Assembly (NCBI RefSeq): GCF_020181035.1
Contig: NZ_JAIQYY010000009.1
Coordinates: 186,001 to 250,000, forward strand
Reading direction: 5' to 3'
Source: Streptomyces sp. CoH27
GTDB taxonomy: Bacteria > Actinomycetota > Actinomycetes > Streptomycetales > Streptomycetaceae
Length of the DNA: 64,000 bases
The notes beneath the pieces are model-generated. The model made no database searches. It saw only the letters and a program-made list of their open reading frames with translations, and was not told where the DNA came from. Numbering within the stretch: the first letter of the stretch is position 1; each line of letters starts with the position of its first letter. Of the stretch, positions 16,775 to 29,880 are shown one piece after another. Both the position numbers and the translations under genes were made by a program.

Positions 16775-18688
16775 TCATCGCTGCACGAGTCGTACCGACA
16801 GACCTTCTGCCGTGTACACGGGTACGGCCCGCAGCCGCTCGGAGTTCACCTCGATCCGGGCGAACCGGCCGCGCAGCCGGGGCACGTCGAGGACCGGCAG
16901 CGTGCTGCCCGCGGCCGGCGGCCGCTCGGTGTCGAGGCGCAGCGACAGGACGGACGATCCGCCCAGCACCGCGAGGTGACGGACCGTCAGCGGGGCCTTG
17001 CGGCCCGCGCGCAGGGTGACCTCCAGCGTGCCCGCGTCCTGCGCGTAGGCGCCGCGCACCCGCAGCCGCAGCCGCCCGTCGATGCGCAGCGTGCCGTCCT
17101 TCACCCGCACGTCCCCGTGGCCGAGGGCGTCCTCGCCGCCGGCGACCAGCGTGCCCTGGGCCAGCACGGTCCCGCCCGTGTACCGGTTGCGGCCGGTCAG
17201 GGTGAGTGTGCCGGTGCCGCGCTTGGTCAGAGCGCCGCAGCCGTCGATGTCGTGGCGCCAGGCGTCGGCCGCCGAGAAGCCGCCCGCCGCCGCGTCCAGC
17301 GTGACCGTGACGTCCGTGTCGAAGGCGCCGTAACCGTCCGCCGCGGCGAACAGGTTCAGCCGGCCCCACTGCTCGAAACCGTCGAGCAGCACATAGCCGG
17401 AGGGCAGGGCGGTGGTGCGCAGCACCTCGCGGCGCTGGTCCGCGCTCAGATACGGCAGCCGGGTCTCCAGCAGCACCTCGGCGCCCTTCGGCACGGTCAG
17501 CGGTACGTCGCGGCCCTGCCGGGTGAGGACGTACGTCAGCCGGGGCCGGACCGCGCGCTCGTTGACGTCCCGGTCGGCGTACGGGTCGGCGCCGCTGTGC
17601 GCGTAGGCGTACAGCGTGTCGGCAGTGGTACCGGTCTGCGCGGTGAAGTAGGCAAGGGCCTGGGCGCGGGCGGCGGCCTTCAGCTGGGCGTTCGCCGGGT
17701 CGGCGAGGGTGGCCGCGGCGAGCGCGGTGGCCATGATCCGGCCGCCCATGACGTCCACGGGGTGGTGCATGCCGGCCACGATCCGGGTGTGGCCCAGCTC
17801 GAAGGCGCGCGTCACCAGCTCCTGGAAGCGCTCCGGCACGGCGTACGCGTAGGCCAGCGCGGCCAGATGGAACGCGTTGGTGTGACCGCTCGGGAAGCCG
17901 CCGTCGTCGGCCGGGGAAGTACCGCGCTGGCGCAGCAGCTGCGGGGCGACGGCCACGGGGGAGTCGTAGACCGGATACCCGAACGCGTCGGTCTTCCCGG
18001 TGTCGACGACCTCGCTGTCCTCGTTCAGCCGCCAGGGACGCGGGTACAGGTAGGCGTACTTGGACGGGTTGCCGGAGGCGTAGGGGCCGCGCAGGGTGTC
18101 GACGAGTTCGGCGACCTTGCCGAGCGCGGAGTCGTGGGCGCCCGCGCCGAGCGCCGAGCCGGCCGGGGCGTTCGCGGGCACGGTGTCGCTGACGGTGGTC
18201 GCCGGGGTGCCGTCGGGGGCGCCGGTGATCGAGGTGACGGCCTTGGCGCCCGCCTTGTACAGGTCGCTCAGCGGGCCGAGGCCGGCGATCATCGCGTAAC
18301 TCTGGTGCTGGCGGTCGTAGACGAAGGCTTCCTTGGCCTGGGCGTCGGTGCGCTCGGCCGTGATCGTCGCGCAGTAGCGCAGGTCGGCGCGGAGGATCTC
18401 GGGGCGCAGCGGGGTGCCGGTGTTCCAGGCGGAGCCGGTCTTCCACACCTGGGCGAAGCCGCCGAGGGCCCGGACCACGGCGTTGGTCTCGGGCGTCAGG
18501 TTGGCGGCGACGTTGGTCTTGTAGTCGTCCACGAACGCGGCCGGCGCCGTCGCGGCCTTGGCGTCGGCCGCCGGCAGCCAGACGGCGACGGCCGGGGCGG
18601 CGAGCACCCCCGCCGACGCGGCCAGCGTGGTCGTGAGGAAGCCGCGCCGGTTCAGCGCGGAGGAGGGATGCCCGGCGGGTGACGGCAT
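16775..18688 (-). CDS. Tat-exported PAP2 phosphatase with autotransporter-type beta-strand repeat
   Basis: A 637-aa secreted protein. The N-terminus has the Tat motif NRRGFLTTT and a hydrophobic stretch ending near residue 45. The vanadium-haloperoxidase/PAP2 fold occupies about residues 60-350: GGFPSGHTN (about 262-270) is the central motif with the catalytic His, and HTRIVAGMHHPVD (about 302-314) is the third motif. C-terminal to it, GALTKRGTGTLTLTGRNRYTGG (in part) followed by LAQGTLVAGGEDALG is the autotransporter-associated beta-strand repeat (PATR type), here probably a beta-helix stalk or substrate-binding part rather than a true autotransporter. It should hydrolyse phosphomonoesters outside the cell. 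The ATG at 18688 is followed by a typical Tat leader. Confidence 0.82.
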   Translation of the reverse strand: MPSPAGHPSSALNRRGFLTTTLAASAGVLAAPAVAVWLPAADAKAATAPAAFVDDYKTNVAANLTPETNAVVRALGGFAQVWKTGSAWNTGTPLRPEILRADLRYCATITAERTDAQAKEAFVYDRQHQSYAMIAGLGPLSDLYKAGAKAVTSITGAPDGTPATTVSDTVPANAPAGSALGAGAHDSALGKVAELVDTLRGPYASGNPSKYAYLYPRPWRLNEDSEVVDTGKTDAFGYPVYDSPVAVAPQLLRQRGTSPADDGGFPSGHTNAFHLAALAYAYAVPERFQELVTRAFELGHTRIVAGMHHPVDVMGGRIMATALAAATLADPANAQLKAAARAQALAYFTAQTGTTADTLYAYAHSGADPYADRDVNERAVRPRLTYVLTRQGRDVPLTVPKGAEVLLETRLPYLSADQRREVLRTTALPSGYVLLDGFEQWGRLNLFAAADGYGAFDTDVTVTLDAAAGGFSAADAWRHDIDGCGALTKRGTGTLTLTGRNRYTGGTVLAQGTLVAGGEDALGHGDVRVKDGTLRIDGRLRLRVRGAYAQDAGTLEVTLRAGRKAPLTVRHLAVLGGSSVLSLRLDTERPPAAGSTLPVLDVPRLRGRFARIEVNSERLRAVPVYTAEGLSVRLVQR

Positions 18689-18934: not shown

Positions 18935-19834
18935 TCACAGCAGCGCACGCGCGAGCGCCACGGCCCCCTCCACCGGCGGCACCCGCAGCGGCCGGGGCCG
19001 GGCCGACGGCAGGGACGCGGCGAGCGCGCCGGCGAAGGCGTCGTACAGCGGTGGCTGGGCGAGGATCGTGCTGCCCGCGACCACCACGTCGTCGACCGCC
19101 GCGCCCCGCCGTTCCAGCAGGACGATCAGCGCGGCCAGGCCGCGACCCCCGGCGGCGATCACCTCCCGGGCGAGCACGGAGCCCGCCTCGGCGGCGGAGA
19201 AGACGGCCGGGGCGGCCCGGCCCCACGCGGCGGACGGGTCGGGGGCGCTCTCCAGCGCCGCGCCCAGCGCGGGCACTTCGGGCACGCCGAACGCGTCGAG
19301 GAGCGCCGCCGCCAGCGCGTCGGGTGCCTCGCCCCGGTCGTGGGCGGCCCAGCAGGCGCGCACCGCCTCGCGGACCAGCCCGGCCGCGCCGCCCTCGTCG
19401 CCGAGGACCGCGCCCCAGCCGCCGACCTGCACCGGCGTACCGTCGGCGCGGCGGCCCACGGCCACCGAGCCGGTGCCGGCGACCAGACCGGCGCCCTTGT
19501 CCAGGGCGGCGGCGGGGACGAGGAGTTCGGCGTCGCCCACGACCAGTGCGGGCGCGTCGAAGTGCAGATGCAGGGCGGTGCGGATCTGTTCGCACTGGCG
19601 CGGGGTCTCGCAGGCGTGGCCGCCCACCGCCAGCGCCGACGGGCGCAGACCGGCCGGCAGGGCCTCGGCGGTCAGCCGGGCCAGCCAGCCGGCGGCGGCG
19701 ACCGGATCGTGCGGCCGCCAGCCGCTGCTCGAACGGACGTGGTCGGCGACCGGGGTGTGGCCGGCCAGGGCGCGCAGATGCGTCTTGGTGCCGCCCACGT
19801 CGATGCCGACCAGGACGGGCGTGGAGTCCTGCAC
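18935..19834 (-). CDS. N-acetylglucosamine-kinase-like (BadF/BadG/BcrA/BcrD) ATPase
   Basis: A 299-aa cytoplasmic sugar kinase of the ASKHA superfamily. GIDVGGTKTHLRAL (residues about 9-22) is the first phosphate loop, GLVAGTGSVAVGRR (about 115-128) the second, and GWGAVLGDEGGA (about 138-149) is typical of BadF/GlcNAc kinases. VVVAGSTI (about 250) is the adenosine motif. The reaction is most likely ATP-dependent phosphorylation of N-acetylglucosamine or a related sugar. The GTG start at 19834 has AAGAGG upstream. It is transcribed away from a ROK regulator across a 217-base region holding a perfect inverted repeat, so it is probably controlled by that regulator. Confidence 0.85.
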   Translation of the reverse strand: MQDSTPVLVGIDVGGTKTHLRALAGHTPVADHVRSSSGWRPHDPVAAAGWLARLTAEALPAGLRPSALAVGGHACETPRQCEQIRTALHLHFDAPALVVGDAELLVPAAALDKGAGLVAGTGSVAVGRRADGTPVQVGGWGAVLGDEGGAAGLVREAVRACWAAHDRGEAPDALAAALLDAFGVPEVPALGAALESAPDPSAAWGRAAPAVFSAAEAGSVLAREVIAAGGRGLAALIVLLERRGAAVDDVVVAGSTILAQPPLYDAFAGALAASLPSARPRPLRVPPVEGAVALARALL

Positions 19835-19983
19835 GGGACCTCTTTCGTCGTGTGCGCTGTCGTTGTTTCGTGCGCGTGATGCTGCGACGGCGGGCGAACC
19901 GTGCCTGGATGAAGCGGGGGCGGAGCGGTCGGGAAGCCCCGGGACGGGCCTCTGGCGGAGTACGGCAGGCGAGTACCGTGAAG

Positions 19984-20007
19984 TTCGTTAGGAAATTAAC
20001 TAACGAA
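19984..20007. promoter_or_regulatory. Perfect inverted repeat, candidate ROK operator
   Basis: TTCGTTAG and CTAACGAA are perfect 8-bp arms around an 8-base A/T-rich spacer (GAAATTAA). It lies 45 bases upstream of the ROK start and 150 bases upstream of the divergent kinase start. A/T-rich dyads of this form fit known ROK-family repressor sites, so it probably controls both genes. Confidence 0.68.
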
Positions 20008-20051
20008 GTACAGTGCGTCAAGAGTCCTCGCGACGACCTAGTGGGAGAACC

Positions 20052-21206
20052 GTGGAACACGACGTGGTGGCTGCGCCCCGGCTGACCGAGAGCGCGAGCG
20101 CGGTCTTCGCCGTGCTCGCCGAGGCGGGCAGCGCGACCCGGCCGCAACTGGCGAGCCTGGCCCGCCTGTCCAAACCGACGGTGTCCTCCGCCGTCGCGGA
20201 GCTGGAGAGCGCCGGGCTCGCCGCTCACTCCGGCACCGCCTCCAGCGGCACCGGCCGCACCGCCGCCGTCTACCGGCTCGGGCCGGAGGCCGGCGCGGTC
20301 CTGGCCGTCGATCTCGGCCCGGACCTCACCCGGGTCCGGGGCTGCGCCCTGGACGGCACGCTGCTCGCGGAGGCCACCGGCTCCCGGGCCGGGGCCGCGG
20401 ACGCGGTGACCGAAGCCCTCGACGCGCTGCCCGCCACGGCCCCGCTGCGGGCCATCGTCGTCGCGATCGGCGACGTCAGCGCACCGGCCACGGAGAGCTC
20501 CGGAGAGCGTCCGGCGACCGCCAAGGCGGGCCCGGTCTTCGACGCCGTGGCCGTCGCGCTGCCCCCGGGCGTGCCGGTCCACCTGGAGAACAACGTCAAC
20601 TGCGCCGCCCTCGCCGAGCTGCACGAGGGTGCCGCCCGGGGTCGGGGCACCTTCGGCTATCTGCGGGTCGGTGTGGGCGTCGGCCTCGGCATCGTCGTCG
20701 GCGGCCAGGTGCTGCGCGGGGCGAACGGCGCGGCCGGCGAGCTGGCCCGGCTGCCCTACCCCTGGGACGAGGGCCGCGAGCCGCGCCTGGAGGCCCTGGA
20801 GGAGTACATGGGCGCGCACTCCCTGCTGCGCCGCGCCGCCGAGGCCTGGCGGGACGCACCGGACGCGAACGGGCCGTGCCCGAAGACCACCGAGCGTCTG
20901 TTCGCGCTGGCCGGCGGAGGGCAGGGACCGGCCCGTGCCGTGGTCGACGCCCACGCCGCCGACGTGGGCCGGCTGGCCGCCGCCGTGGCCGCCGTACTGG
21001 ACCCGGGGCTGATCGTGCTCGGTGGCAGCACCGGCGCGGACCCGCAGCTCCTGCCCGGGGTGCGGGCCGAGCTGGCCCGGCTGAGCTGGCCCACCGAGGT
21101 GGTCAGCAGCACGGTCGGCGATCTCGGCACCGTGGTGGGCGCGGCCCGGCTCGCGGTGGCCCGAGGTGTCCGAACCGTGACCGAGCCCGCGCGATGGAGG
21201 CATTGA
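20052..21206 (+). CDS. ROK-family transcriptional regulator (NagC/XylR-like)
   Basis: A 384-aa sugar-responsive regulator. The N-terminal winged helix (about 10-75) reads LAEAGSATRPQLASLARLSKPTVSSAVAELESAGL (in part). The ROK kinase-like domain follows, with AVDLGPDLTRV near 87, ENNVNCAALAELHEGAA (about 180-196) and VGVGLGIVVGGQVLRGANGAAGELA (in part), the family signature. The cysteine zinc motif (CxCGxxGC) usually found after GELA is absent: the segment reads LEALEEYMGAHSLL. Either this member does not bind zinc there or the loop has diverged. I chose the GTG at 20052 because GGGAG lies just upstream. It diverges from the kinase gene and precedes the ABC importer, which it most likely regulates. 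Confidence 0.88.
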   Translation: MEHDVVAAPRLTESASAVFAVLAEAGSATRPQLASLARLSKPTVSSAVAELESAGLAAHSGTASSGTGRTAAVYRLGPEAGAVLAVDLGPDLTRVRGCALDGTLLAEATGSRAGAADAVTEALDALPATAPLRAIVVAIGDVSAPATESSGERPATAKAGPVFDAVAVALPPGVPVHLENNVNCAALAELHEGAARGRGTFGYLRVGVGVGLGIVVGGQVLRGANGAAGELARLPYPWDEGREPRLEALEEYMGAHSLLRRAAEAWRDAPDANGPCPKTTERLFALAGGGQGPARAVVDAHAADVGRLAAAVAAVLDPGLIVLGGSTGADPQLLPGVRAELARLSWPTEVVSSTVGDLGTVVGAARLAVARGVRTVTEPARWRH

Positions 21207-21230
21207 CGGCTTCCGGCTCGCTCTGTCAAT
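21202..21230. promoter_or_regulatory. Inverted repeat between ROK gene and importer operon
   Basis: ATTGAC and GTCAAT are perfect 6-bp arms 17 bases apart, at the 3' end of the ROK gene. Just after it, ACAAGCGCTTTCT carries an 8-bp palindrome AAGCGCTT (about 21239-21246), like a LacI-type core. Either could be an operator for the importer operon beginning at 21483. Confidence 0.4.
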
Positions 21231-21482
21231 GTCCGGACAAGCGCTTTCTAAGTCGGCCGGGAACGCCGACTCCGGGTGAGCCTCCCGCCGGTACGCGAAG
21301 TACGGCAGCCGCACGAGGGCGTGCTTGTGCGACGACGGCCCTCATGGCCGGGGACCTCACCCGCTCAAGGCGGCGAGGCCGGGCGAGGCCGCGCCCCCGG
21401 AAAGCGAAATTTCCTGCAAAATGCACCCGTGCCGCCTCGGTCGGCGCCGTGCTCCGTCCCCTACGACGAAAAGGGATCGAAG

Positions 21483-22814
21483 ATGACCAGTGTGGGTGTG
21501 CGGCGCTCCCGCCGACTCGGCCGCCGCGGCATACGCCGGATGGTTCCCCTCGCTGCCGCTGCCGCGGCAGGTGCCCTTCTGCTCTCCGCCTGCGGCGGGT
21601 CGGGGTCCGGCTCGGGCGGGAACTCCAAGTCGCTGACGTTCTGGATCTCCACGGTCCCGGGGCAGGACGCGGGCTGGAAGAAGCTGGTGGCGCAGTACAA
21701 GCAGGAAGCCGGCGTCGACGTCAAGCTCGTCAACATCCCCTACGACGGCTACCCGACGAAGCTGCACAACGCCGCGCAGGCGAACGCTCTGCCCGACGTG
21801 GCGGACGTGCCCGCGCTGGACCCGATCTGGTCGAACAAGCTGATCGACCTCAGCTCCATCGCCAACGACAAGAGCAACAACATCAACGGCAACTTCCTCG
21901 CCAAGGACTCGTCCGGGAAGGTGCTGTCCATCCCCTCGGACGTCACCGCGTCCGGCCTGTACATCAACGAGACGCTGTTCAAGAAGGCCGGCGTCTCCTT
22001 CCCGACCTCGCCCCAGAAGACCTGGACCTGGACCGACTTCATCAAGGCGGCGAACCAGGTCCGGGAGAAGACCGGCGCCAAGTACTCCCTGACGTTCGAC
22101 CAGTCGCCGTCCCGGCTCCGCGCCATGGTGTACGAGATGGGCGGGCAGTATGTCCACGCGGACTCCTCCGGCACGTTCTCGGTGGACGCCGCGACCAAGA
22201 AGGCCGTGAACTTCTTCGTCGGACTGAACGACGACAAGACCATGCCGAAGTCGGTGTGGACCAGCGGCGCCGACCCGTCGGCCATGTTCCAGAGCGGTGA
22301 CGTGGTCGCCTACTGGTCCGGCGTGTGGCAGGTTCCCGCCTTCGCGGAGAGCATCAAGAAGTTCGACTGGGCGAGCGTCCCCACGCCCGCCGAGCCGGTC
22401 CAGGCGAGCGACGTCAACAGCGGCGGCATGATGGTCGGCTTCAACAACAACGGCGCCGCGGCCACCGCCGCGCAGAAGTTCCTGGCCTGGGTGTACGCGC
22501 CCAAGCAGTACACCGAGCTGGTCGAGACCTCCGGGTTCCTCCCGGTCGAGAGCGGCCTGAACCCGAAGTACCCCTTCACCTCCGAGGCGGCGCAGGCGGC
22601 GTTCAAGCTGTACAACCAGGAGATCCCGCTCTACGCCCCGATCTCCGGGTACTTCAACAACGCGCAGACGAACTGGGTGCTGAAGGGCAAGAGCCTCACC
22701 ACCGACCCGACCAAGACGGAGCTCGGCAAGGCGGTCAACGGCCAGCAGTCGGCCGACAAGGCCCTGGAGAACATCGTGGCCGGCTACAACCAGCAGGTCG
22801 GCGGCGGATCGTAG
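21483..22814 (+). CDS. ABC sugar importer, solute-binding lipoprotein
   Basis: A 443-aa extracellular binding protein of the family-1 carbohydrate type. The signal peptide has Arg-rich start MTSVGVRRSRRLGRRG and lipobox LLLSACGG with Cys37, so it is lipid-anchored outside the membrane. The mature part starts with a Gly/Ser linker and SLTFWISTVPGQDAGWKKL, then QEAGVDVKLVNIPYDGY, typical of sugar-binding proteins. LPDVADVPALDPIW and SGLYINETLFKKAGV are further family features. It is the first gene of an operon with two permeases and two enzyme candidates; no ATPase is encoded, as is usual in streptomycetes, where the shared MsiK ATPase serves such importers. Confidence 0.88.
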   Translation: MTSVGVRRSRRLGRRGIRRMVPLAAAAAAGALLLSACGGSGSGSGGNSKSLTFWISTVPGQDAGWKKLVAQYKQEAGVDVKLVNIPYDGYPTKLHNAAQANALPDVADVPALDPIWSNKLIDLSSIANDKSNNINGNFLAKDSSGKVLSIPSDVTASGLYINETLFKKAGVSFPTSPQKTWTWTDFIKAANQVREKTGAKYSLTFDQSPSRLRAMVYEMGGQYVHADSSGTFSVDAATKKAVNFFVGLNDDKTMPKSVWTSGADPSAMFQSGDVVAYWSGVWQVPAFAESIKKFDWASVPTPAEPVQASDVNSGGMMVGFNNNGAAATAAQKFLAWVYAPKQYTELVETSGFLPVESGLNPKYPFTSEAAQAAFKLYNQEIPLYAPISGYFNNAQTNWVLKGKSLTTDPTKTELGKAVNGQQSADKALENIVAGYNQQVGGGS

Positions 22815-22817
22815 ACC

Positions 22818-22861
22818 ACAGGGCCGGGCGGCGGGGTCGAGACACTGCCGCCCGGCCCTGT
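22818..22861 (+). terminator. Strong intercistronic hairpin after the binding-protein gene
   Basis: Perfect 15-bp arms ACAGGGCCGGGCGGC and GCCGCCCGGCCCTGT with a 14-base loop, starting 4 bases after the stop codon. There is no U-run, so it is probably a partial terminator or an mRNA-stabilising stem that raises binding-protein level above the permeases. Confidence 0.72.
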
Positions 22862-22931
22862 TCGCCCACGTGACGCCGGGCTCATGGCGTGAGCCCACAG
22901 GAACCCATTCCACCAGCACGGAGTCAGGAAG

Positions 22932-23843
22932 ATGACAAAACGCGCCTCGGACGTGTCCGTGAGCTCGCCCAGGAGACGCAGCCGCTACACCCTCGCGCCG
23001 CTCGTCCTCATCGCGGCCAATGTCGTGCTCTTCGCGCTGTTCTTCGTCTGGCCGGCGGTGATCGGGCTCGTCTACTCCTTCACGAACTACACAGGCGTGG
23101 GCGCGTTCCAGTTCATCGGACTGGACAACTACAGCAATCTGTTCGGGGACTCCTCCTTCTACGACGCGCTGACCCGGACGCTGCTGTACACCGTCCTCTT
23201 CGTTCCGCTGAACTTCGCGCTCTCGCTGCTCATCGCCAACGTGCTGGTGAGCAAGCACGCCAAGGGCACGTCGGTCGCCCGTGTCGTCTTCTTCATCCCG
23301 TGGCTGCTGTCGCCCATCGTCGTGGGCGTCCTGTGGCGGTGGCTGTTCGGCGAGAACTTCGGACTGGTCAACTACGTCGTCGAGAAGCTCGGCGGGCACG
23401 CGATTCCGTGGCAGTCGAACGCGGACCTGTCGCTGCTGGTGGTGGTGATGGCGGCATCCTGGGCCTGGACGGGCTTCTCGATGCTGCTGTTCATCGCGGC
23501 GATCAAGAACGTACCGGTGTCGTACTACGAGGCGGCCGCGCTCGACGGCGCCGGTCCGTGGCGCCAGTTCATCAGCATCACGCTGCCGAGCATCGCGCCC
23601 ACCTCGTTCATCGTCATCCTGCTCAACACGATCAACGCGATGAAGGAATACCCGCTGTTCGTCTCCCTCAACAACGGCGGACCCGGAACGTCGAACAACC
23701 TGCTTGTCCAGTACATCTATCAGACCGGCTTCCAACGGGGCCAGATCGGCTACGCGAGCGCCGCGTCATTCGTGCTCATGCTCATCCTGATGGCCGTCGC
23801 GATCATCCAGCTGATCGTCAACCGGCGGGTGGAGAACCGATGA
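22932..23843 (+). CDS. ABC sugar importer permease (MalF type)
   Basis: A 303-aa inner-membrane permease with six predicted helices. The first is at about residues 23-47, and SFTNYTGVGAFQFIGLDNYSNLF (in part) is the usual periplasm-side stretch. The EAA loop that docks the ATPase reads YYEAAALDGAGPWRQFISITLP (about 198-219, in part). It pairs with the next permease, whose start codon overlaps its stop (ATGA). Start ATG at 22932 follows GGAGTCAGGAAG. Confidence 0.9.
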   Translation: MTKRASDVSVSSPRRRSRYTLAPLVLIAANVVLFALFFVWPAVIGLVYSFTNYTGVGAFQFIGLDNYSNLFGDSSFYDALTRTLLYTVLFVPLNFALSLLIANVLVSKHAKGTSVARVVFFIPWLLSPIVVGVLWRWLFGENFGLVNYVVEKLGGHAIPWQSNADLSLLVVVMAASWAWTGFSMLLFIAAIKNVPVSYYEAAALDGAGPWRQFISITLPSIAPTSFIVILLNTINAMKEYPLFVSLNNGGPGTSNNLLVQYIYQTGFQRGQIGYASAASFVLMLILMAVAIIQLIVNRRVENR

Positions 23844-24742
23844 CAACCACAGACATGGCACGCCCGGTCGACGCCGATCCCGGACGGGCCGACTCCAAGA
23901 AGCGGCCCCGCAGCGAGGGCGGCGGTGGGCTCCGGCGGGCGATACCCGCGACGACACTCCTGTGGCTCCTGGCGTGCCTCTACGGGCTGCCGGTGCTGTG
24001 GTTCATCCTCAGCTCCCTCAAACCGGCCGGGGACTTGTTCTCCTATCCGCTGACGCTGGTTCCGCACCACCCCACCCTGTCGGGTTACCTGACGGCGTGG
24101 CGCAGCGCCAACTTCTCCCAGTACTTCATCAACACGACCCTCGTGTGCGTGATCACGACGGTCCTCACGGTGGCAGCCAGCTGCTGCACCGGGTACGCGC
24201 TGGCCAAGTACGACAACAAGTGGCTCAAGGCGTTCTTCATCTGCATCCTGGCCACCACGATGCTGCCGGGCGAGGTCATGCTCGCCCCGGAGTTCCTGGT
24301 GGTCCGCAACCTCGGCCTCTACAACTCGTTCACCGGCATCATCCTCCCGGCCGTGCTCACCGCGACCGGATGCTTCATGTTCCGCCAGTTCTTCCTGACG
24401 GTCCCCGACGAACTCGTGGAAGCCGCACGCATCGACGGCGCCCGCGAACTGTCGATCTTCCTGCGGATCATGGTGCCGCTCTCCCGGCCCATCATGCTGA
24501 CCCTCGCCATCCTGTCCTTCCAGTGGCGCTGGAACGACTACATCTGGCCGCTGCTGATGCTCAACGACCCCAGCAAGTTCACCGTGCAGATCGGCATCCA
24601 GAGCATCGTCGGCGCGCAGAACATCAACTGGTCGGTCCTGCTCGGCGCATCGGTCATCTCCATGATCCCGCTGATCGTCATCTTCCTGGTCTTCCAGCGC
24701 TACGTCATGGGCGCCGACATCAATGCCGGACTGAAGGACTGA
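23840..24742 (+). CDS. ABC sugar importer permease (MalG type)
   Basis: A 300-aa permease, second half of the transmembrane channel. A charged N-terminal tail of about 35 residues precedes the first helix. It then shows FILSSLKPAGDLFSYP, five further helices and the EAA loop LVEAARIDGARELSIFLRIMVP (in part). The start overlaps the MalF-type gene by 4 bases and the next gene follows within 2 bases, so translation is coupled throughout. Confidence 0.9.
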   Translation: MTTTDMARPVDADPGRADSKKRPRSEGGGGLRRAIPATTLLWLLACLYGLPVLWFILSSLKPAGDLFSYPLTLVPHHPTLSGYLTAWRSANFSQYFINTTLVCVITTVLTVAASCCTGYALAKYDNKWLKAFFICILATTMLPGEVMLAPEFLVVRNLGLYNSFTGIILPAVLTATGCFMFRQFFLTVPDELVEAARIDGARELSIFLRIMVPLSRPIMLTLAILSFQWRWNDYIWPLLMLNDPSKFTVQIGIQSIVGAQNINWSVLLGASVISMIPLIVIFLVFQRYVMGADINAGLKD

Positions 24743-24744
24743 CC

Positions 24745-26445
24745 TTGCCCACTGGGTTCGACCACGAGTTCGTCCGCGCAGCGGCGCTCGCCGCCGACGG
24801 GTCGGCCGACCCATCGGCGGAATTCATTGAGCCGCACCGCGCCCTGGCCCGGCGGGTGAAGACCCTGGTCGCGGCGTACCTCTCGCCGGAGTCGGCCCTG
24901 CACGGCAGCGAGCGGGCCGTCGCCGCCGCGCTGACCCACCTCCGTGCCCTGCGGTCCGTGCAGACGGCCTCCGGCCTCTTCGCGGGCGGCGACAACGTGC
25001 AGTCGCCGCCGGACTCCGCGTTCACCGTCAACGACGTGTGCGACGCGCACGTCCTCGCCGCGGGCGCGGGGCCGGAACTGGCCGACGTCACGGCGGCGCT
25101 CGCCGACATCGCGGGCGCCGCCACCGGCCCTCTCCTGACCGGCGGGGTGCACACCCCGAACCACCGCTGGGAGCTGTCCGCGGCGCTGGCCCGACTGCAC
25201 CGCTCGTTCCCGGACGACCGGCTGCTCGCCCGCGCCGAGGAGTGGCTCGCCGAGGGCGTCGACATCGACGCGGAGGGCCTGTACTCGGAACGCAGCGCCG
25301 TCTACGCGTCCATCGTCACCAACCCGTCGCTGCTGTTGCTGGCCGAGGTGCTCGGGCGTACCGACCTGCTGGACGCCGTCGAACGCAACCTCGCCGCGAC
25401 CCTGGACCTGATCAGGCCGGACGGCACGGTGGAGACCGTCCACTCGCGCCGCCAGGACCAGAGCCATTCGTTCCCGTTGTGGCCCTACCTGCCGCACTAC
25501 CGGCTGCTCGCGATCCGCACCGGCCGGGGCGACTTCGCCCGCGCGGCCCGCCTGGCGGCGGCCGACGGCATCAACGACCCCGACCTGCTCGCCCAGACCC
25601 TCCTCACCCCGGATCTGTGCCGCGCCCTGCCGGCCCCGGACGCGGAGAAGCTCCCGCGCGACCGGTACCTCCCCACCGCACGCCTCGCCGCACACGCCTC
25701 GGCCACCGCGCACACCGTGGTGTACGGCGGCTCCGACGTGCCCGAGCACCGGCGCATCCGCTCGGGCCTCGCCTGCAACCCCACCTTCCTGCGCCTGTTC
25801 GCCGGCGACGCCGTCCTCGACGCGGTCCGTCTCTCGCGGGGGTTCTTCGACATGGGCCCGTTCCGCGCCGGAGACATGGAACAGCTCGCCGACAACCGGT
25901 ACCGGCTCACCGAAACCCTCACAACCGCCTACTACCAGCCGCTCCCGAAGGACCTCAGGCGTGACGACGGCGCCTACCGTCTGGTGGACGAGGGCCGCTT
26001 CTCCGCGGCGATGGCCTTCCCCGACCGCCCCGAGGACGAGGTCTCCCACACGACCCGAGTCGAGGTCGACCTGCGGGAGGACGGGGCCGACCTGCGGATC
26101 GACATCAGCGGCCCGCCGGTGCCCTGGGCCCTCGAACTGACCTTCCGGCCGGGCGGCGTGCCGGAGGGCGCCGTACCGATCGGTGACGGACGCTGGTGCC
26201 TGACGACCGGGCCGATGACCTACCGGGTCGGTGACGACGAGATCCGGGTCGAGGCCGACGTCGAGGCAGGCGAACCGCTTGCCGGGTCGTACCGCAGCGA
26301 CGTACTGCGGTACGACCCCGGTCAGGACTACACCGTGGTGGGCGGCACCGACGCGACGACCGGGAACCGCGTCTACATCGGTGGACACGGCCCGCACACA
26401 CTGACCGTCGCACTGCGCGCCCGCCGGCCCGCACCTGCCGTGTGA
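24745..26445 (+). CDS. Toroid-type carbohydrate-active enzyme candidate (heparinase-like), 566 aa
   Basis: A 566-aa cytoplasmic protein with no signal peptide. The N-terminal 380 residues are helical with conserved aromatics and polar motifs such as GGDNVQSPPDSAFTVND, GGVHTPNHRWE and VETVHSRRQDQSHSFPLWPY (in part), which fit an (alpha/alpha) toroid. The last 150 residues are beta-rich with an all-beta pattern (VEVDLREDGADLRIDISGPP, in part). This two-part architecture occurs in polysaccharide lyases and some glycosidases, but I cannot assign a family. The TTG start at 24745 is supported by GAAGGACT 9 bases upstream and by 2-base spacing after the permease stop. Coupling to the importer implies that it acts on the imported oligosaccharide. 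Confidence 0.62.
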   Translation: MPTGFDHEFVRAAALAADGSADPSAEFIEPHRALARRVKTLVAAYLSPESALHGSERAVAAALTHLRALRSVQTASGLFAGGDNVQSPPDSAFTVNDVCDAHVLAAGAGPELADVTAALADIAGAATGPLLTGGVHTPNHRWELSAALARLHRSFPDDRLLARAEEWLAEGVDIDAEGLYSERSAVYASIVTNPSLLLLAEVLGRTDLLDAVERNLAATLDLIRPDGTVETVHSRRQDQSHSFPLWPYLPHYRLLAIRTGRGDFARAARLAAADGINDPDLLAQTLLTPDLCRALPAPDAEKLPRDRYLPTARLAAHASATAHTVVYGGSDVPEHRRIRSGLACNPTFLRLFAGDAVLDAVRLSRGFFDMGPFRAGDMEQLADNRYRLTETLTTAYYQPLPKDLRRDDGAYRLVDEGRFSAAMAFPDRPEDEVSHTTRVEVDLREDGADLRIDISGPPVPWALELTFRPGGVPEGAVPIGDGRWCLTTGPMTYRVGDDEIRVEADVEAGEPLAGSYRSDVLRYDPGQDYTVVGGTDATTGNRVYIGGHGPHTLTVALRARRPAPAV

Positions 26446-26494
26446 CTCCGACGACCCACGCCATGGCCACCTCAGGTATGAAGGGCTGATCCCC

Positions 26495-28333
26495 GTGCAC
26501 CTCCCGCCCCCTCCCGTGCATCTGCCCCGCCAGCTCGGCCCGCTGCACGACCTGCCCGACACCCCCGAGGCGTACGACGCGGTCCTCGCGGACGTCGTCG
26601 AGGCGGCCCTCGCGCGGATCACGCCGGAAGGCAACCTTGAGCACCCGGACGCCGGCGACGACATCGGCGACACCTCGCTCGGCATCACCTCCCTGCTCGC
26701 CCTCGCCTGGCAGCGCGGCAAGGACCCCCGCCTCCCCGCGGCCGTCCGCACCAGCCTCGCCTTCCACCTGCGCGAACGCGTCTACACCGAGGACAACCCC
26801 GGCTACCCCAACCTGCGCGTCACCAACTCGGGCCTGCCGTACGCCCGTTACGTCCTCGAAGCGGGCGCCCACCCCATCGGCGACTGGCCCAGCACGGTCT
26901 GGGCCCTGCTCCAGGCGGTCAACGTCCTCGACGCGGCCGAGGGCCTCGTGGACGGCGAACAGCGCACCGAACTGAGGGAGTTGGCGCACGGCTACTGGCA
27001 GTGGCTGACCGAGGCGACCTTCTTCAACCCGCAAGAGGCCGGCAACCAGGCCATCGGCTGTGTGGTCGGCGGCCTGATGCTCGCCCGCCATCTCCCGGAC
27101 AGCGAGGGGGAGTTGGTGCGTGCACGGGCCTTGCGCCTGTACGCCGAGGAGATCCGCGCCCACCGGGTCCGTGACCGGGGCGCATCGCTGCCGCCTGAGC
27201 ACGGCGGCGCCTACGACAACAACTACGGCCCGATCTCCCTGTCGTTCCTCGCCCAGGCCCACCGGGTCAGCGGCGCGGAGATGTTCGCCGAGGACGGCGA
27301 CACCCTTGCCCGCTATCTCGACGCCCGGCTGACCAGCGGCGGCTACGACTGCGGCGGACCCCGCTACAGCGAACAGCACTCCGGCTTCGAATCCGTCCTG
27401 GGCCTGCGGTACTTCGGCGCGCGCATCGGCGCCGACCTGGGCCGCTACCGGGGCGACACCCGCTGGGGCCGGCACGCCGTGCAGGGCGACGGCCGGATCG
27501 ACGGGCACTTCGCCTTCATGCTCGTCTGGCAGATCCAGGACCCCACCCGCTGGCACCGCACCCCGTCCCCCGGCCCCGCCCGCCACCAACTGCGCTCCGG
27601 CACGGTCTCCGTGGCCTTCGACAGCCGGATGACCCCCGCCCTGATCGAGGCCGCCGGCACCTACTACCTGCCCGCCGCCGTGCGCCGCCAGCACGGCTTC
27701 GGCCCGGTCACCGACGGCTTCCTGCTGTGCCGCCCGATGGGCGAGGTACGCGTCCGCGACGTCCGTGCCGACGGGCTCGCCGCCAAACTGGTCACCAAAC
27801 CGGTCGTCGGCCGCGACCACGTCCTGCGCCATGTCCGCTCGCTGTACGTCACCGACGGCACCAGCCTGTGGGTCACGGTCGCCGTGGAACGCCTCGACGG
27901 GGAGCCGTACCTGCTGTCCGGAATGCCGTACGCCGCCGATGACGGCGACCGGGTGCGCCGCACCGCCGAAGGCCAGGTCACGGCGGCGGGCGGTCTGCGC
28001 CTCACGCACCCGGCGGCGCCGGGCGACGACCACTTCGACGCCCGCGGCGAACTCACCCAGGAACAGGCCGCGTTCGCCCTCGCCGCCGACCCGCGCGGCT
28101 ACGGCAACCCGGACGAGGGCTGGCGCCACCTGATCTCCTCCACCGCCCTGGAGGCCGACCCGGCCCCGGGCGCCCCCGCCGGGCTGCACGTGTTCGCCGT
28201 ACGGTACGGGCCCGGGGGAGCCTTCGCGCCCGTCTTCGAGGAGGGCCCGGAGGGACTCACCGTGCGCACGGAGGCGTTCACCGCCGTGCTCGGCGAGCCG
28301 GTGGGCGAACCCCGGCTGGACATCTCCGCCTGA
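26495..28333 (+). CDS. Second toroid-type carbohydrate-active enzyme candidate, 612 aa
   Basis: A 612-aa cytoplasmic protein. The N-terminal 340 residues are helical, with LGITSLLALAWQRGKD, FFNPQEAGNQAIGCVVGGL, EHGGAYDNNYGPISLSFL and GGPRYSEQHSGFESVLGL, which place Asn, Gln, His and Tyr side chains as in toroid lyases or hydrolases. A beta-rich part (about 360-605) follows. It resembles the preceding gene in layout but not clearly in sequence. The GTG start at 26495 follows AAGGGCTGA, 49 bases after the previous stop, so it is probably the last gene of the importer operon. The reaction is unknown. His and Tyr in RYSEQHS are candidates for catalysis. Confidence 0.62.
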   Translation: MHLPPPPVHLPRQLGPLHDLPDTPEAYDAVLADVVEAALARITPEGNLEHPDAGDDIGDTSLGITSLLALAWQRGKDPRLPAAVRTSLAFHLRERVYTEDNPGYPNLRVTNSGLPYARYVLEAGAHPIGDWPSTVWALLQAVNVLDAAEGLVDGEQRTELRELAHGYWQWLTEATFFNPQEAGNQAIGCVVGGLMLARHLPDSEGELVRARALRLYAEEIRAHRVRDRGASLPPEHGGAYDNNYGPISLSFLAQAHRVSGAEMFAEDGDTLARYLDARLTSGGYDCGGPRYSEQHSGFESVLGLRYFGARIGADLGRYRGDTRWGRHAVQGDGRIDGHFAFMLVWQIQDPTRWHRTPSPGPARHQLRSGTVSVAFDSRMTPALIEAAGTYYLPAAVRRQHGFGPVTDGFLLCRPMGEVRVRDVRADGLAAKLVTKPVVGRDHVLRHVRSLYVTDGTSLWVTVAVERLDGEPYLLSGMPYAADDGDRVRRTAEGQVTAAGGLRLTHPAAPGDDHFDARGELTQEQAAFALAADPRGYGNPDEGWRHLISSTALEADPAPGAPAGLHVFAVRYGPGGAFAPVFEEGPEGLTVRTEAFTAVLGEPVGEPRLDISA

Positions 28334-28403: not shown

Positions 28404-29054
28404 TCAGGCTATGCCGGGCAGCGCGGTCGGCGGGACGATCAGGTCCGCCCGCCCCCGCGTCGTCTCCACCAGCTCGGCGTTGCGCTGGTCCGTGCCCAGC
28501 ACCCAGGCCACCGCCTCCTCGTGGCCCTTGCCGAACTCCTCGTGCCGGGCGACCAGCCGGCGGATCCGCTCCTCCTCGGCGAGCTCGCAGAACCACGCCT
28601 CGTCCAGGCACGGCCGCACCCGCGCCCACGAACCCTCGGTCAGCAGCAGGTAGTTGCCCTCGGTCACCACCAGCCGGGCCGCCGGCTCCACCGGTATCGC
28701 GCCCGCCAGCGGCTGCTCCAGGACCCGCTCGAAGCCGGGCGCGTACACGACCTCCTCGGTGTCCTCGTGCAGCCGGCGCAGCAGTGCCGCGTAGCCGGCC
28801 GCGTCGAAGGTGTCCGGGGCGCCCTTGCGGTCCCGGCGGCCCAGGCGGTCCAGTTCGGCGTCGGCCAGGTGGAAGCCGTCCATCGGCACATGCGCCGCCC
28901 AGGGCGGCCCGTCCCCGTTCAGGGCCCGCACCAGATGCTCCGCGAGGGTCGTCTTGCCCGCACCGGGGCTGCCCGCGATGCCGAGCACGGCACGCCGGCC
29001 CTCCCCGGCGAGGGCACGGGCACGGGCGAGGAGGTCGTCGAAGGTCAGCGGCAC
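28404..29054 (-). CDS. P-loop nucleoside/sugar kinase (uridine kinase/FrcK-like)
   Basis: A 216-aa cytoplasmic kinase of the phosphoribulokinase/uridine-kinase fold. The Walker A loop is GIAGSPGAGKTTLAEHL (about residues 26-42); MDGFHLADAELDRLGRRDRKGAPDTFD (in part) holds the acidic substrate motif; and VVTEGNYLL is the second acidic segment. This group includes fructose-transport-associated kinases and pantothenate-kinase-like proteins of actinomycetes. I favour the GTG at 29054 (PLTFDDLL follows); a codon at 29087 would add a Cys-rich stub. It converges with the importer operon and diverges from the beta-phosphoglucomutase gene 85 bases away. Confidence 0.78.
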   Translation of the reverse strand: MPLTFDDLLARARALAGEGRRAVLGIAGSPGAGKTTLAEHLVRALNGDGPPWAAHVPMDGFHLADAELDRLGRRDRKGAPDTFDAAGYAALLRRLHEDTEEVVYAPGFERVLEQPLAGAIPVEPAARLVVTEGNYLLLTEGSWARVRPCLDEAWFCELAEEERIRRLVARHEEFGKGHEEAVAWVLGTDQRNAELVETTRGRADLIVPPTALPGIA

Positions 29055-29139
29055 ACCGCACAGTGTGCACCAGGAGTTCGCGCACACATGTGGCGTGCGC
29101 CACCCACTGGACGGCGCCTCATGGGGAACAGTGCTGGGT

Positions 29140-29880
29140 ATGACTCAGCTCGGTCTGCCCGACACAATCCAGGCCTGCCTGTTCGATCTCGACGGGGTCG
29201 TGACCAAGACGGCCCTCGTGCACGCGGCCGCCTGGAAGGAGACCTTCGACCCGTTCCTGCGCGACTACGACGGCGCGCAGGGGCGGCCGTTCGACGCGGT
29301 CGCCGACTACGACGAGTACGTCGACGGCCGCCCCCGCGCCGACGGCGTGCGCGCCTTCCTCGCCTCACGCGGCATCCAGCTGCCCGAGGGCACCCCCGAG
29401 GACCCGCCGGACGCCCGCACCGTGCACGGCGTCGGCAACCGCAAGAACCTCCTGCTCCTTGAGAAGATCCGCACCGGCGGCGTGGAGGCCTACGCGGGCA
29501 CCCTGCGCTATCTGGAGGCGGTGCGCGCCGAGGGGCTGCGCACGGCGATCGTCTCCTCCAGCGCCAACTGCCGTGACGTGCTGCGCGCGGTCGGCGCCGA
29601 GCACTTCTTCGACGTACGGATCGACGGGGTCGTGGCCGCCGAACGGCACCTGCCGGGCAAGCCGCACCCCGACACCTTCCTCGCCGCCGCCCGCGACCTC
29701 GGCGTCGAGCCGTCCCACGCCGCCGTCTTCGAGGACGCGCTGGTCGGCATGGACGCGGGCCGCGCGGGCGGCTTCGGATACGTCGTCGGCGTCGACCGGG
29801 TCGGCCAGGCCGACGCGCTGTACGCGCACGGCGCGAGCATCGTCGTCCAGGACCTCGCCGAGCTGGGAGGCAAGCAGTGA
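29140..29880 (+). CDS. Beta-phosphoglucomutase-family HAD hydrolase
   Basis: A 246-aa haloacid-dehalogenase-fold enzyme. CLFDLDGVVT carries the nucleophile Asp16 and acid/base Asp18. TAIVSSSANC is motif II, GKPHPDTFLAAA holds the motif III lysine and FEDALVGMDAGRAGGF is motif IV. The family interconverts beta-glucose-1-phosphate and glucose-6-phosphate. The stop overlaps the start of the GH65 gene (GTGA), and GH65 phosphorylases release beta-glucose-1-phosphate, so the two form a disaccharide-use unit. The cap-domain insert is longer than in Lactococcus PgmB, as common in actinomycetes, where some act as trehalose-phosphate phosphatase-like enzymes. Confidence 0.85.
   Translation: MTQLGLPDTIQACLFDLDGVVTKTALVHAAAWKETFDPFLRDYDGAQGRPFDAVADYDEYVDGRPRADGVRAFLASRGIQLPEGTPEDPPDARTVHGVGNRKNLLLLEKIRTGGVEAYAGTLRYLEAVRAEGLRTAIVSSSANCRDVLRAVGAEHFFDVRIDGVVAAERHLPGKPHPDTFLAAARDLGVEPSHAAVFEDALVGMDAGRAGGFGYVVGVDRVGQADALYAHGASIVVQDLAELGGKQ

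Follow-up and report, generated by a model that had tools for sequence, protein, structure and literature searches.

Which reaction two large proteins, P1 and P2, carry out in a compact Streptomyces sugar locus, and on which sugar, is the question raised by positions 18935-28333 of the window, i.e., the 64,000-nucleotide stretch of DNA analysed here. The locus comprises a BadF/NagK-type sugar kinase gene (18935-19834, minus strand), divergent from six plus-strand genes encoding a ROK-family regulator (20013-21206), the lipoprotein binding protein of a CUT1-type importer, hereafter importer A (21483-22814), permease 1 (22932-23843), permease 2 (23840-24742), P1 (566 aa, 24745-26445), and P2 (612 aa, 26495-28333). 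Open frames were found for all seven genes at these coordinates, and Pfam confirmed the kinase, the regulator, the binding protein, and both permeases, in agreement with the compact locus outlined in the preliminary description. The permease genes overlap by 4 bp, the TTG start codon of P1 lies 2 bases past the permease 2 stop, and P2 starts with GTG. Among the seven genes no ATPase gene was present, and none for the further use of unsaturated uronate was recognised. In other Streptomyces records, 71 of 80 P2 loci carried both the kinase and the ROK gene beside P2, so the cluster is not due to chance. The reading proposed here is that P1 and P2 both act as oligouronide lyases in the cytosol and fall outside the sequence families searched; we see an about even chance for it.

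Searches of Pfam, NCBIfam, PHROGs, and PDB sequences yielded no convincing match to P1 or P2 (NCBIfam was searched with both sequences and, of the two alignments, with that of P1), and the failure of the preliminary description to match either to a named family is borne out for these collections. Across family members, the best Pfam E values were 0.026 (15 P1-family proteins) and 0.047 (10 P2-family proteins), a profile search of the PDB gave nothing better than E 0.02 for either protein, and neither Lyase_8 (PF02278) nor Hepar_II_III (PF07940) matched P1, P2, or the aligned family members at E ≤ 1. No relatives of P1 or P2 were found in viral contigs, and the two showed no similarity in a profile comparison (E 0.85). 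Against the PL8 profile, P1 reached E 0.0073 across the toroid (reversed control 0.17), and P2 reached E 0.019 (reversed 0.28) in a match that covers only residues 18-113 and misses the active-site motif. The P1 profile did not match the Hepar_II_III profile (E 0.23). Two further assignments were rejected, namely P1 as PL5, which it resembles in its Asn-His pair (profile E 0.094 over 16 columns, no match), and P2 as a relative of BACCELL_00875 (5no8; E 0.02), where the match falls apart into two segments scoring 6-8 bits. Pfam models may not exist for recently established PL families, and P1 and P2 could accordingly be ordinary members of named CAZy lyase families absent from Pfam, NCBIfam, and PHROGs, but the lack of a convincing match in these collections and the weak best E values of the family members and the PDB profile search make this rather unlikely.

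Structure prediction and Foldseek supported the toroid plus beta-sandwich layout put forward in the preliminary description, a layout that is likely for the P2 model and probable for that of P1, with polysaccharide lyases as the best matches of both. Mean pLDDT was 66.5 for P2 (a modest model, with values below 50 in the proposed catalytic loops 226-240 and 278-293) and 51.7 for P1 (a poor model), because the alignments consisted of near-identical Streptomyces rows only; both models had strands over roughly the last 200 residues. All 29 PDB chains matching P2 at E ≤ 0.001 were polysaccharide lyases, the best being chondroitinase 9o3q (4.5e-7) and GAGase VII 8khw (6.3e-7), with exoHep and alginate lyases also present; PL8 chain 1rw9 followed at 6.6e-5, and the TM of about 0.4-0.45 to this fold marks the resemblance as approximate. 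For the low-confidence P1 model, 8/8 chains at E ≤ 0.001 were likewise lyases, headed by chondroitin AC lyase 1rwa/1rw9 (1rwa, 1.2e-5) and chondroitinase 9o3q. VIA-align, in which a solved fold missing from the lists was not counted as excluded, gave lyases Z 17-17.6 for P2, on the toroid alone, behind 7tem (an unnamed exported protein; Z 21.3) and the toroids of 2-epimerases (Z 18-21); for P1, lyases and epimerases were level at Z 13-14.

Candidate active-site residues were searched for among invariant columns. In P2, N184, H236, and Y244 were invariant in 10/10 aligned homologues with identity down to 35%, and their spacing (N-H 52, N-Y 60) is near that of the Streptomyces PL8 motif GAN...QHxxxxYxxxYG (50 and 59, worked out on L131); for 1RWA, also PL8, PMC12088678 gives Asn183/His233/Tyr242. 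When letters were shuffled among the 129 invariant P2 columns, such a triple arose in 139 of 20000 trials, with a spacing window that had been picked with PL8 already known. By sequence, the PL8-type Asn/His/Tyr pattern appears, approximately, in P2 only. The 15 aligned P1 homologues had 41 invariant columns, 31 of them within residues 70-240, and P1 displays a heparinase/PL17-like motif (N139-H140 and E182RSxxY187), in which the stretch of the family reads DGxYxERSxxY (in the window, EGLYSERSAVY) and is similar to DGWEWEGSTYYH in two Hepar_II_III proteins. Y187 was kept in 14/15 rows by column, and it lies 48 residues beyond N139, as against about 53-57 between the toroid Asn (often part of an Asn-His pair) and the Tyr in PL12/15/17/33/35/39. 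In these families a beta-sandwich His follows the Tyr by about 130-166 residues; no His after H140 was invariant in the 15 P1 homologues, so P1 lacks this residue as known from PL12/17/33/35. From these patterns and folds we infer the lyase chemistry and the catalytic residues of both proteins.

The invariant acidic residues of P1 (D90, E170, D173, E182, and D238) would also fit (alpha/alpha) toroid glycoside hydrolases (GH88/GH105, GH76, or similar) in which acid residues cut the bond; GH76 and unsaturated glucuronyl hydrolases occurred lower in the fold lists, and the window's genome had no match to GH88 (PF07470). Such hydrolases, however, match the toroid alone, whereas the significant long matches were lyases and the Asn-His-Tyr of P2 is a lyase pattern, so that hydrolysis is regarded as unlikely. 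An evolutionary link between these lyases and DS-epi1 is stated in PMC11848413. Human dermatan sulfate epimerase 1 (DSE1, 6hzn), which shares the fold and a related Tyr/His site, aligned with P2 at Z 17.3 (437 residues, rmsd 9.2) and with P1 at Z 12.4 (385 residues, rmsd 13.5), and the top Z rows for the P2 toroid were mostly 2-epimerases, as expected if P1 and/or P2 were uronyl C5-epimerases like DSE1 or AGE-type 2-epimerases. Both forms of this explanation are quite improbable, as AGE enzymes are not known to have a C-terminal beta-sandwich, whereas both models carry strands in that region, and as an epimerase alone would free no sugar for the adjoining kinase, yet P2 is the sole one of the two enzymes in some loci (L090, L015).

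The preliminary description had P1 and P2 without signal peptides, and a simple hydropathy count agrees: the highest 12-residue mean within the first 50 residues was 0.88 for P1 and 1.85 for P2, compared with 1.61 for the ROK protein and 2.28 for the binding protein, which has a lipobox (LLLSAC). That an imported oligosaccharide is opened inside the cell, as also suggested there, is plausible. The binding protein matched SBP_bac_8 (E 1.9e-30) and the permeases BPD_transp_1 (permease 1, E 4.7e-19; permease 2, E 1.4e-17). The importer A binding protein was closest to 7bvt (nearest solved chain, E 1.1e-18) and to maltose/arabino-oligosaccharide binders, with YesO at just 2e-8, and its sequence matches give no uronide hint. 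An alternative importer, B, was tried in one locus (L015), and its binding protein was nearest to YesO (E 5e-48), a protein whose structure was solved with unsaturated rhamnogalacturonan trisaccharide according to PMC7596534. Two points, the lack of a uronide hint from the importer A binding protein and the fact that the match of P2 to PL8 leaves out its active-site motif, lower our confidence in the lyase reading to about even odds.

The kinase matched PF01869 (BcrAD_BadFG) with 47.6 bits, above the cut-off of 31.5, and scored 48.7 bits against the NagK_SO3507 equivalog, far under its cut-off of 370. Its nearest solved chains were MurNAc/GlcNAc kinase 8zo3 (E 2e-13), NAGK 2ch6/2ch5 (E about 1.7e-7), and hexokinase 2e2n (E 3.7e-7). 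The ROK protein matched PF00480 (77.9 bits) and has a MarR_2-like HTH just below the cut-off (E 2.2e-5); the better spaced GTG at 20052 is more likely its start than 20013. Between the kinase and ROK genes lies a palindrome, TTAGGAA[A/G]TTAACTAA, which in the window reads TTAGGAAATTAACTAA (19988-20003). It was kept in the kinase-ROK gap of 71/71 loci with both genes, none of which had a second site at ≤3 mismatches. At ≤2 mismatches, a single site was found in each of 15 of the 16 Streptomyces genomes known to carry P1 and/or P2, and no site in one further genome (G044) or in any of 10 Streptomyces genomes in which a search for P2 alone had found nothing; at most one site per genome occurred in the 27 genomes searched. 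With its ROK domain, the winged helix at its N terminus, and a palindrome close to its gene, the protein has the features of a ROK repressor, and the palindrome is a candidate operator that the regulator would bind.

The pairing of P1 with P2 is not obligatory. Each occurs without its partner, and P1-only, P2-only, and combined loci all retain the same kinase and ROK genes together with the palindrome. Since the two are lost independently while these elements stay the same, they probably deliver the same product. Two ideas on the substrate were discarded. The first had the locus processing products of the organism's own PL8, but among 25 same-genus genomes, own included, PL8 was present in 6/7 with P2 and in 13/18 without. 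The second was a general link of P1 to mannose via GH38, which was found beside P1 homologues in three genomes of one genus only and in none of the Streptomyces loci.

In the mechanism proposed, the ABC importer would bring in uronic-acid-containing oligosaccharides on which P1 and P2 act in the cytosol. Within the (alpha/alpha) toroid of each enzyme, Asn would neutralise the uronate carboxylate and Tyr, helped by His, would serve as base and acid, breaking the 4-O-glycosidic bond via beta-elimination, which would set a sugar free and leave a 4,5-unsaturated uronide behind. The BadF/NagK-type kinase would then phosphorylate the freed sugar, and the sugar or its phosphate would probably free the ROK regulator from the palindrome, while P1 and P2 may accept different oligosaccharides or linkages and release the same sugar. 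First substrate candidates are GlcNAc/GalNAc-GlcA, from the kinase type, and mannose-uronate, from GH38 near P1 homologues in that one genus. The preliminary description had held that the reaction may be new; since beta-elimination at uronic acid is known chemistry, the reaction itself probably is not, and the possible novelty lies in the families. More tentatively, and with the chances somewhat against it, P1 and P2 may found two new intracellular PL families, one PL8-like and the other with a heparinase/PL17-like site, that replace GH88/GH105 and feed one kinase and ROK switch, imported uronides in this lineage being opened by elimination by two lyases without detectable mutual similarity. 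If the proposed lyase reading is right, many Streptomyces species would offer two candidate new lyase families that can be assayed, and the regulator, candidate operator, and kinase that come with them would point to the product; soil actinobacteria would also be shown to open uronic-acid oligosaccharides by means of lyases in the cytosol.

Among known systems, PL8 (chondroitin AC, hyaluronate, and xanthan lyase) shares with P2 the toroid plus beta-sandwich, a comparable Asn-His-Tyr spacing (52/60 in P2 vs 50/59), and similar text around His and Tyr, and with P1 a weak profile match across the toroid. In contrast to PL8 enzymes of about 800 aa, P1 and P2 are shorter, show neither a Lyase_8 match nor a signal peptide, and adjoin an importer and a kinase. 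The PL12/15/17/33/35/39 group (heparinase, alginate-type) is among the best fold matches of both proteins and resembles P1 in the Asn-His pair and [DE]GxxxExSxxY, whereas P1 differs by its shorter Asn-Tyr distance and its lack of an invariant beta-sandwich His and of a Hepar_II_III profile match. In Bacillus subtilis, yesOPQR accounts for rhamnogalacturonan uptake and the cytosolic GH105 YesR hydrolyses, as described in PMC7596534; there, too, a uronide importer has a cytosolic enzyme beside it, and the importer B binding protein of L015 is nearest to YesO, but the present loci have lyase-like proteins in place of YesR, add a kinase and a ROK regulator, and in the window use importer A. The Paenarthrobacter/Microbacterium xanthan utilisation region, in the available text of PMC12772297, has importers, GH38, a kinase annotated as N-acetylglucosamine kinase (in Paenarthrobacter), and no GH88; its PL8 is described as secreted, unlike P1 and P2, and that text names no P1/P2-like protein. 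The Streptomyces loci differ from it in lacking GH38 and share with it importers and a kinase; the window's genome likewise had no GH88 match, and the P1 homologues of one genus have GH38 beside them as well. As the same text reports that both the organism studied and Microbacterium XT11 are without GH88 and that their uronic-acid-removing enzyme is unknown, P1-like proteins are possible fillers of this gap in the xanthan pathway.

The closest relatives of the genome carrying the window (9.75 Mb, G000:C94), judged by the locus, are Streptomyces. The seven-gene locus of the preliminary description (18935-28333) was recovered as open frames at those positions, and Pfam assigned the kinase to BadF/BadG (47.6 bits), the regulator to ROK (77.9 bits) and the binding protein to SBP_bac_8, and also recognised the two permeases; no ATP-binding protein was found among the seven genes. 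P1 (24745-26445(+), 566 aa) starts 2 bases past the stop of permease 2, and P2 (26495-28333(+), 612 aa) starts 49 bases downstream of P1. A simple hydropathy count detected no signal-peptide-like start in either protein, in agreement with their earlier description as lacking signal peptides. The best-supported account of the locus is cytosolic elimination, sugar phosphorylation and local control, in which imported uronides would be opened in the cytosol through elimination by P1 and/or P2, the freed sugar would be phosphorylated, and the ROK regulator would control the locus locally.

Neither protein had been matched to a named CAZy family, and the libraries searched here gave no family assignment for either. 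As single sequences, P1 and P2 matched nothing in NCBIfam, PHROGs or PDB sequences, and nothing in Pfam beyond a chance-level E of 0.047 for P2; Pfam scans of 15 P1 and 10 P2 homologues yielded chance-level matches only, and profiles from the homologue sets gave nothing convincing against PDB. Models were built from 52 rows for P1 (A3, the window and 51 loci) and 50 for P2 (A4, the window and 49 of 80 loci), these rows being 79-92% identical to the window and omitting loci without a called start or with an overlong start, contig-end cuts or a truncated P1; mean pLDDT was 51.7 for P1 and 66.5 for P2. In Foldseek, all PDB chains at E<=0.001 were toroid plus beta-sandwich lyases, both for P2 (29/29, including PL35, PL15, PL39, PL17, PL33, PL8 and PL21) and for P1 (8/8, chiefly PL8), which makes the proposed layout likely for P2 and probable for P1; the family numbers follow entry titles, PMC12088678 or general usage. 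VIA-align, in which Z below about 13 may be chance in helical models, placed an unnamed exported protein first for P2 (7tem, Z 21.3), and 2-epimerases (Z 18-21, ~300 residues, 3.7-4.8 A) also outranked the lyases (5no8, Z 17.6 on 275 residues; five chains, Z 16.8-17.1, 365-428 residues, 5.8-8.7 A). For P1, 9o3q and 8khw came first (Z 14.0, 374-378 residues), tied on the toroid with the 2-epimerase 3vw5 (13.8) and PL17 (13.5), and their rmsd of 15-16.5 A indicates that domain placement is wrong somewhere.

In P2, N184, H236 and Y244 were kept in 10/10 aligned homologues, with flanks (EHxxxxDxNYG) resembling QHxxxxYxxxYG of Streptomyces PL8 proteins; Table 4 of PMC12088678 gives Asn183, His233 and Tyr242 for the PL8 enzyme 1RWA. 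The same table lists an Asn, a Tyr 54-57 residues further on and a beta-sandwich His for PL35, PL12 and PL17, and the PL33 residues given in PMC11848413 are N238, Y291 and H444. In P1, HTPNHRW (136-142) and ERS (182-184) were invariant in 15/15 homologues and Y187 was present in 14/15, and no invariant His was found past H140. A heparinase-type motif pattern, once written, fitted 10/16 P1, 2/20 Hepar_II_III, 0/19 PL8 and 0/12 PL5 sequences, the window's P1 (EGLYSERSAVY) giving no strict fit. Profile comparison with PL8 gave E 0.0073 for P1 (reversed 0.17), laying HTPNHRWEL over TGANxxD, which bears the catalytic Asn, one residue out of step, and E 0.019 for P2 (reversed 0.28) across residues 18-113 only; values against Hepar_II_III (P1 0.23, P2 0.13) and PL5 (P1 0.094, P2 0.15) were at chance level. 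The likeness of P1 and P2 to lyases in residues and profiles is suggestive only.

P2 was present in 13 of 61 genomes (own counted, one marginal) and in 5/246 genomes of the class (own counted; one fragment, one marginal), and P1 in 11/246 genomes of the class, or 14/394 by profile (own included), across four genera. The P1 family reaches gut bacteria, a 27% identical relative lying on a Subdoligranulum plasmid (Bacillota; L112 11578-13194) near carboxylesterase-like and GH3-like frames named by eye. A distant P2 relative (46%; L126 5986-14964) occurs with kinase and ROK relatives and with genes for DUF6807, GFO/IDH/MocA and AP_endonuc_2 proteins, a set known from 3-keto-glycoside breakdown.

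Among 126 P2 relatives in genome contigs, 80 Streptomyces loci were kept (one labelled only Actinobacteria); having been collected through P2, all carry it. P1 covered >90% of its length in 51, all with the window's importer A (called where permease 2 was >60% identical), and was absent from 26, of which 15 carry a different importer (B), 8 have importer A and 3 lack an adjacent importer; no importer-B locus carried P1 (0/15). The three partial copies comprised two at contig ends and one truncated at 474 aa beside an intact P2 (L077). Conversely, P1, the kinase, the ROK gene and importer A are all kept in two genomes (G013, G162) that lack a whole P2; G579 had P1 and the palindrome described below with no P2 match listed. 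In G275 (L116), P1 and importer A stand beside a ROK gene that differs from the usual one, with no P2 match and no kinase match in the stretch taken. Behind full-length P1, about 50 C-terminal residues of P2 remain in G162 (L178) and only the last 200 in G258 (L176), decays that are independent. Thus, the loss of either enzyme need not affect the remaining genes of the locus. Adjoining the kinase, a PAP2 phosphatase that bears a passenger-transport repeat (PATR; 16775-18688(-)) was present in 73/80 P2 loci, and a 61% identical copy precedes the binding protein in a different actinomycete family (L120); it is a possible secreted partner. Other conserved neighbours (28404-32240) are a nucleoside-kinase-like gene (NF006743 above cut-off; matched in 75/80 P2 loci), followed by a HAD hydrolase gene and one for a GH65 protein. 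A 919-residue frame with a signal-peptide-like start (4364-7123(-)) had no Pfam match at E<=1e-5.

The divergent kinase-ROK gap contained the palindrome TTAGGAA[A/G]TTAACTAA in all 71 of the 80 loci with both genes, and no second site occurred in those loci at <=3 mismatches. In a scan of 27 chosen genomes (<=2 mismatches; 3 stray matches in the backward control), it occurred exactly once in 15 of the 16 Streptomyces genomes for which P1, P2 or both are known, the P1-carrying exception being G275, where the ROK gene differs; it was absent from ten Streptomyces genomes without a P2 match (scanned for P2 alone) and from G044, which holds a distant P2. From its distribution, the palindrome looks like a candidate local switch rather than a regulon. 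Kinase, regulator and palindrome are common to P1-only, P2-only and combined loci, which argues that P1 and P2 probably deliver the same product.

Regarding the substrate, the solved chain nearest to the kinase was that of a MurNAc/GlcNAc kinase (E 2e-13), with NAGK and an entry for a hexokinase coming next, which leans to an amino sugar. However, a kinase of the BadF type does not by itself imply an amino sugar, since the xanthan region as described in PMC12772297 has a kinase annotated as N-acetylglucosamine kinase alongside PL8, GH38 and ManA, GH88 being absent there. The importer B binding protein, tried in one locus (L015), was nearest YesO (E 5e-48), whose ligand is given in PMC7596534 as unsaturated galacturonate-rhamnose-galactose. 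The window's own binding protein had 7bvt (1.1e-18) and binders of maltose or arabino-oligosaccharides as its closest matches, YesO reaching only 2e-8, and thus importer A offers no uronide hint. GH38 adjoins P1 homologues in three genomes that belong to a single genus; two P1 loci of G198 have GH95 and GH2 nearby, and a second P1 locus of G259 has a GH3 with CBM6 at a distance of ~4 kb. Permeases 56-64% identical to importer A occurred in 6/9 non-Streptomyces actinomycete P1 loci, and kinase relatives were near in two (L121, L124). Elsewhere in the window's genome, PL8 and Hepar_II_III_C had one match each and PL5-like matches numbered five; GH88 had no match.

No published account of such a P1/P2 system was found in open-access PubMed Central. 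As to the earlier suggestion that substrate and reaction may be new, the reaction is probably not: the chemistry proposed for P1 and P2, elimination, is already known, whereas the families, their location and their pairing appear new, as judged against Pfam, NCBIfam, PHROGs, PDB sequences and open-access PubMed Central.
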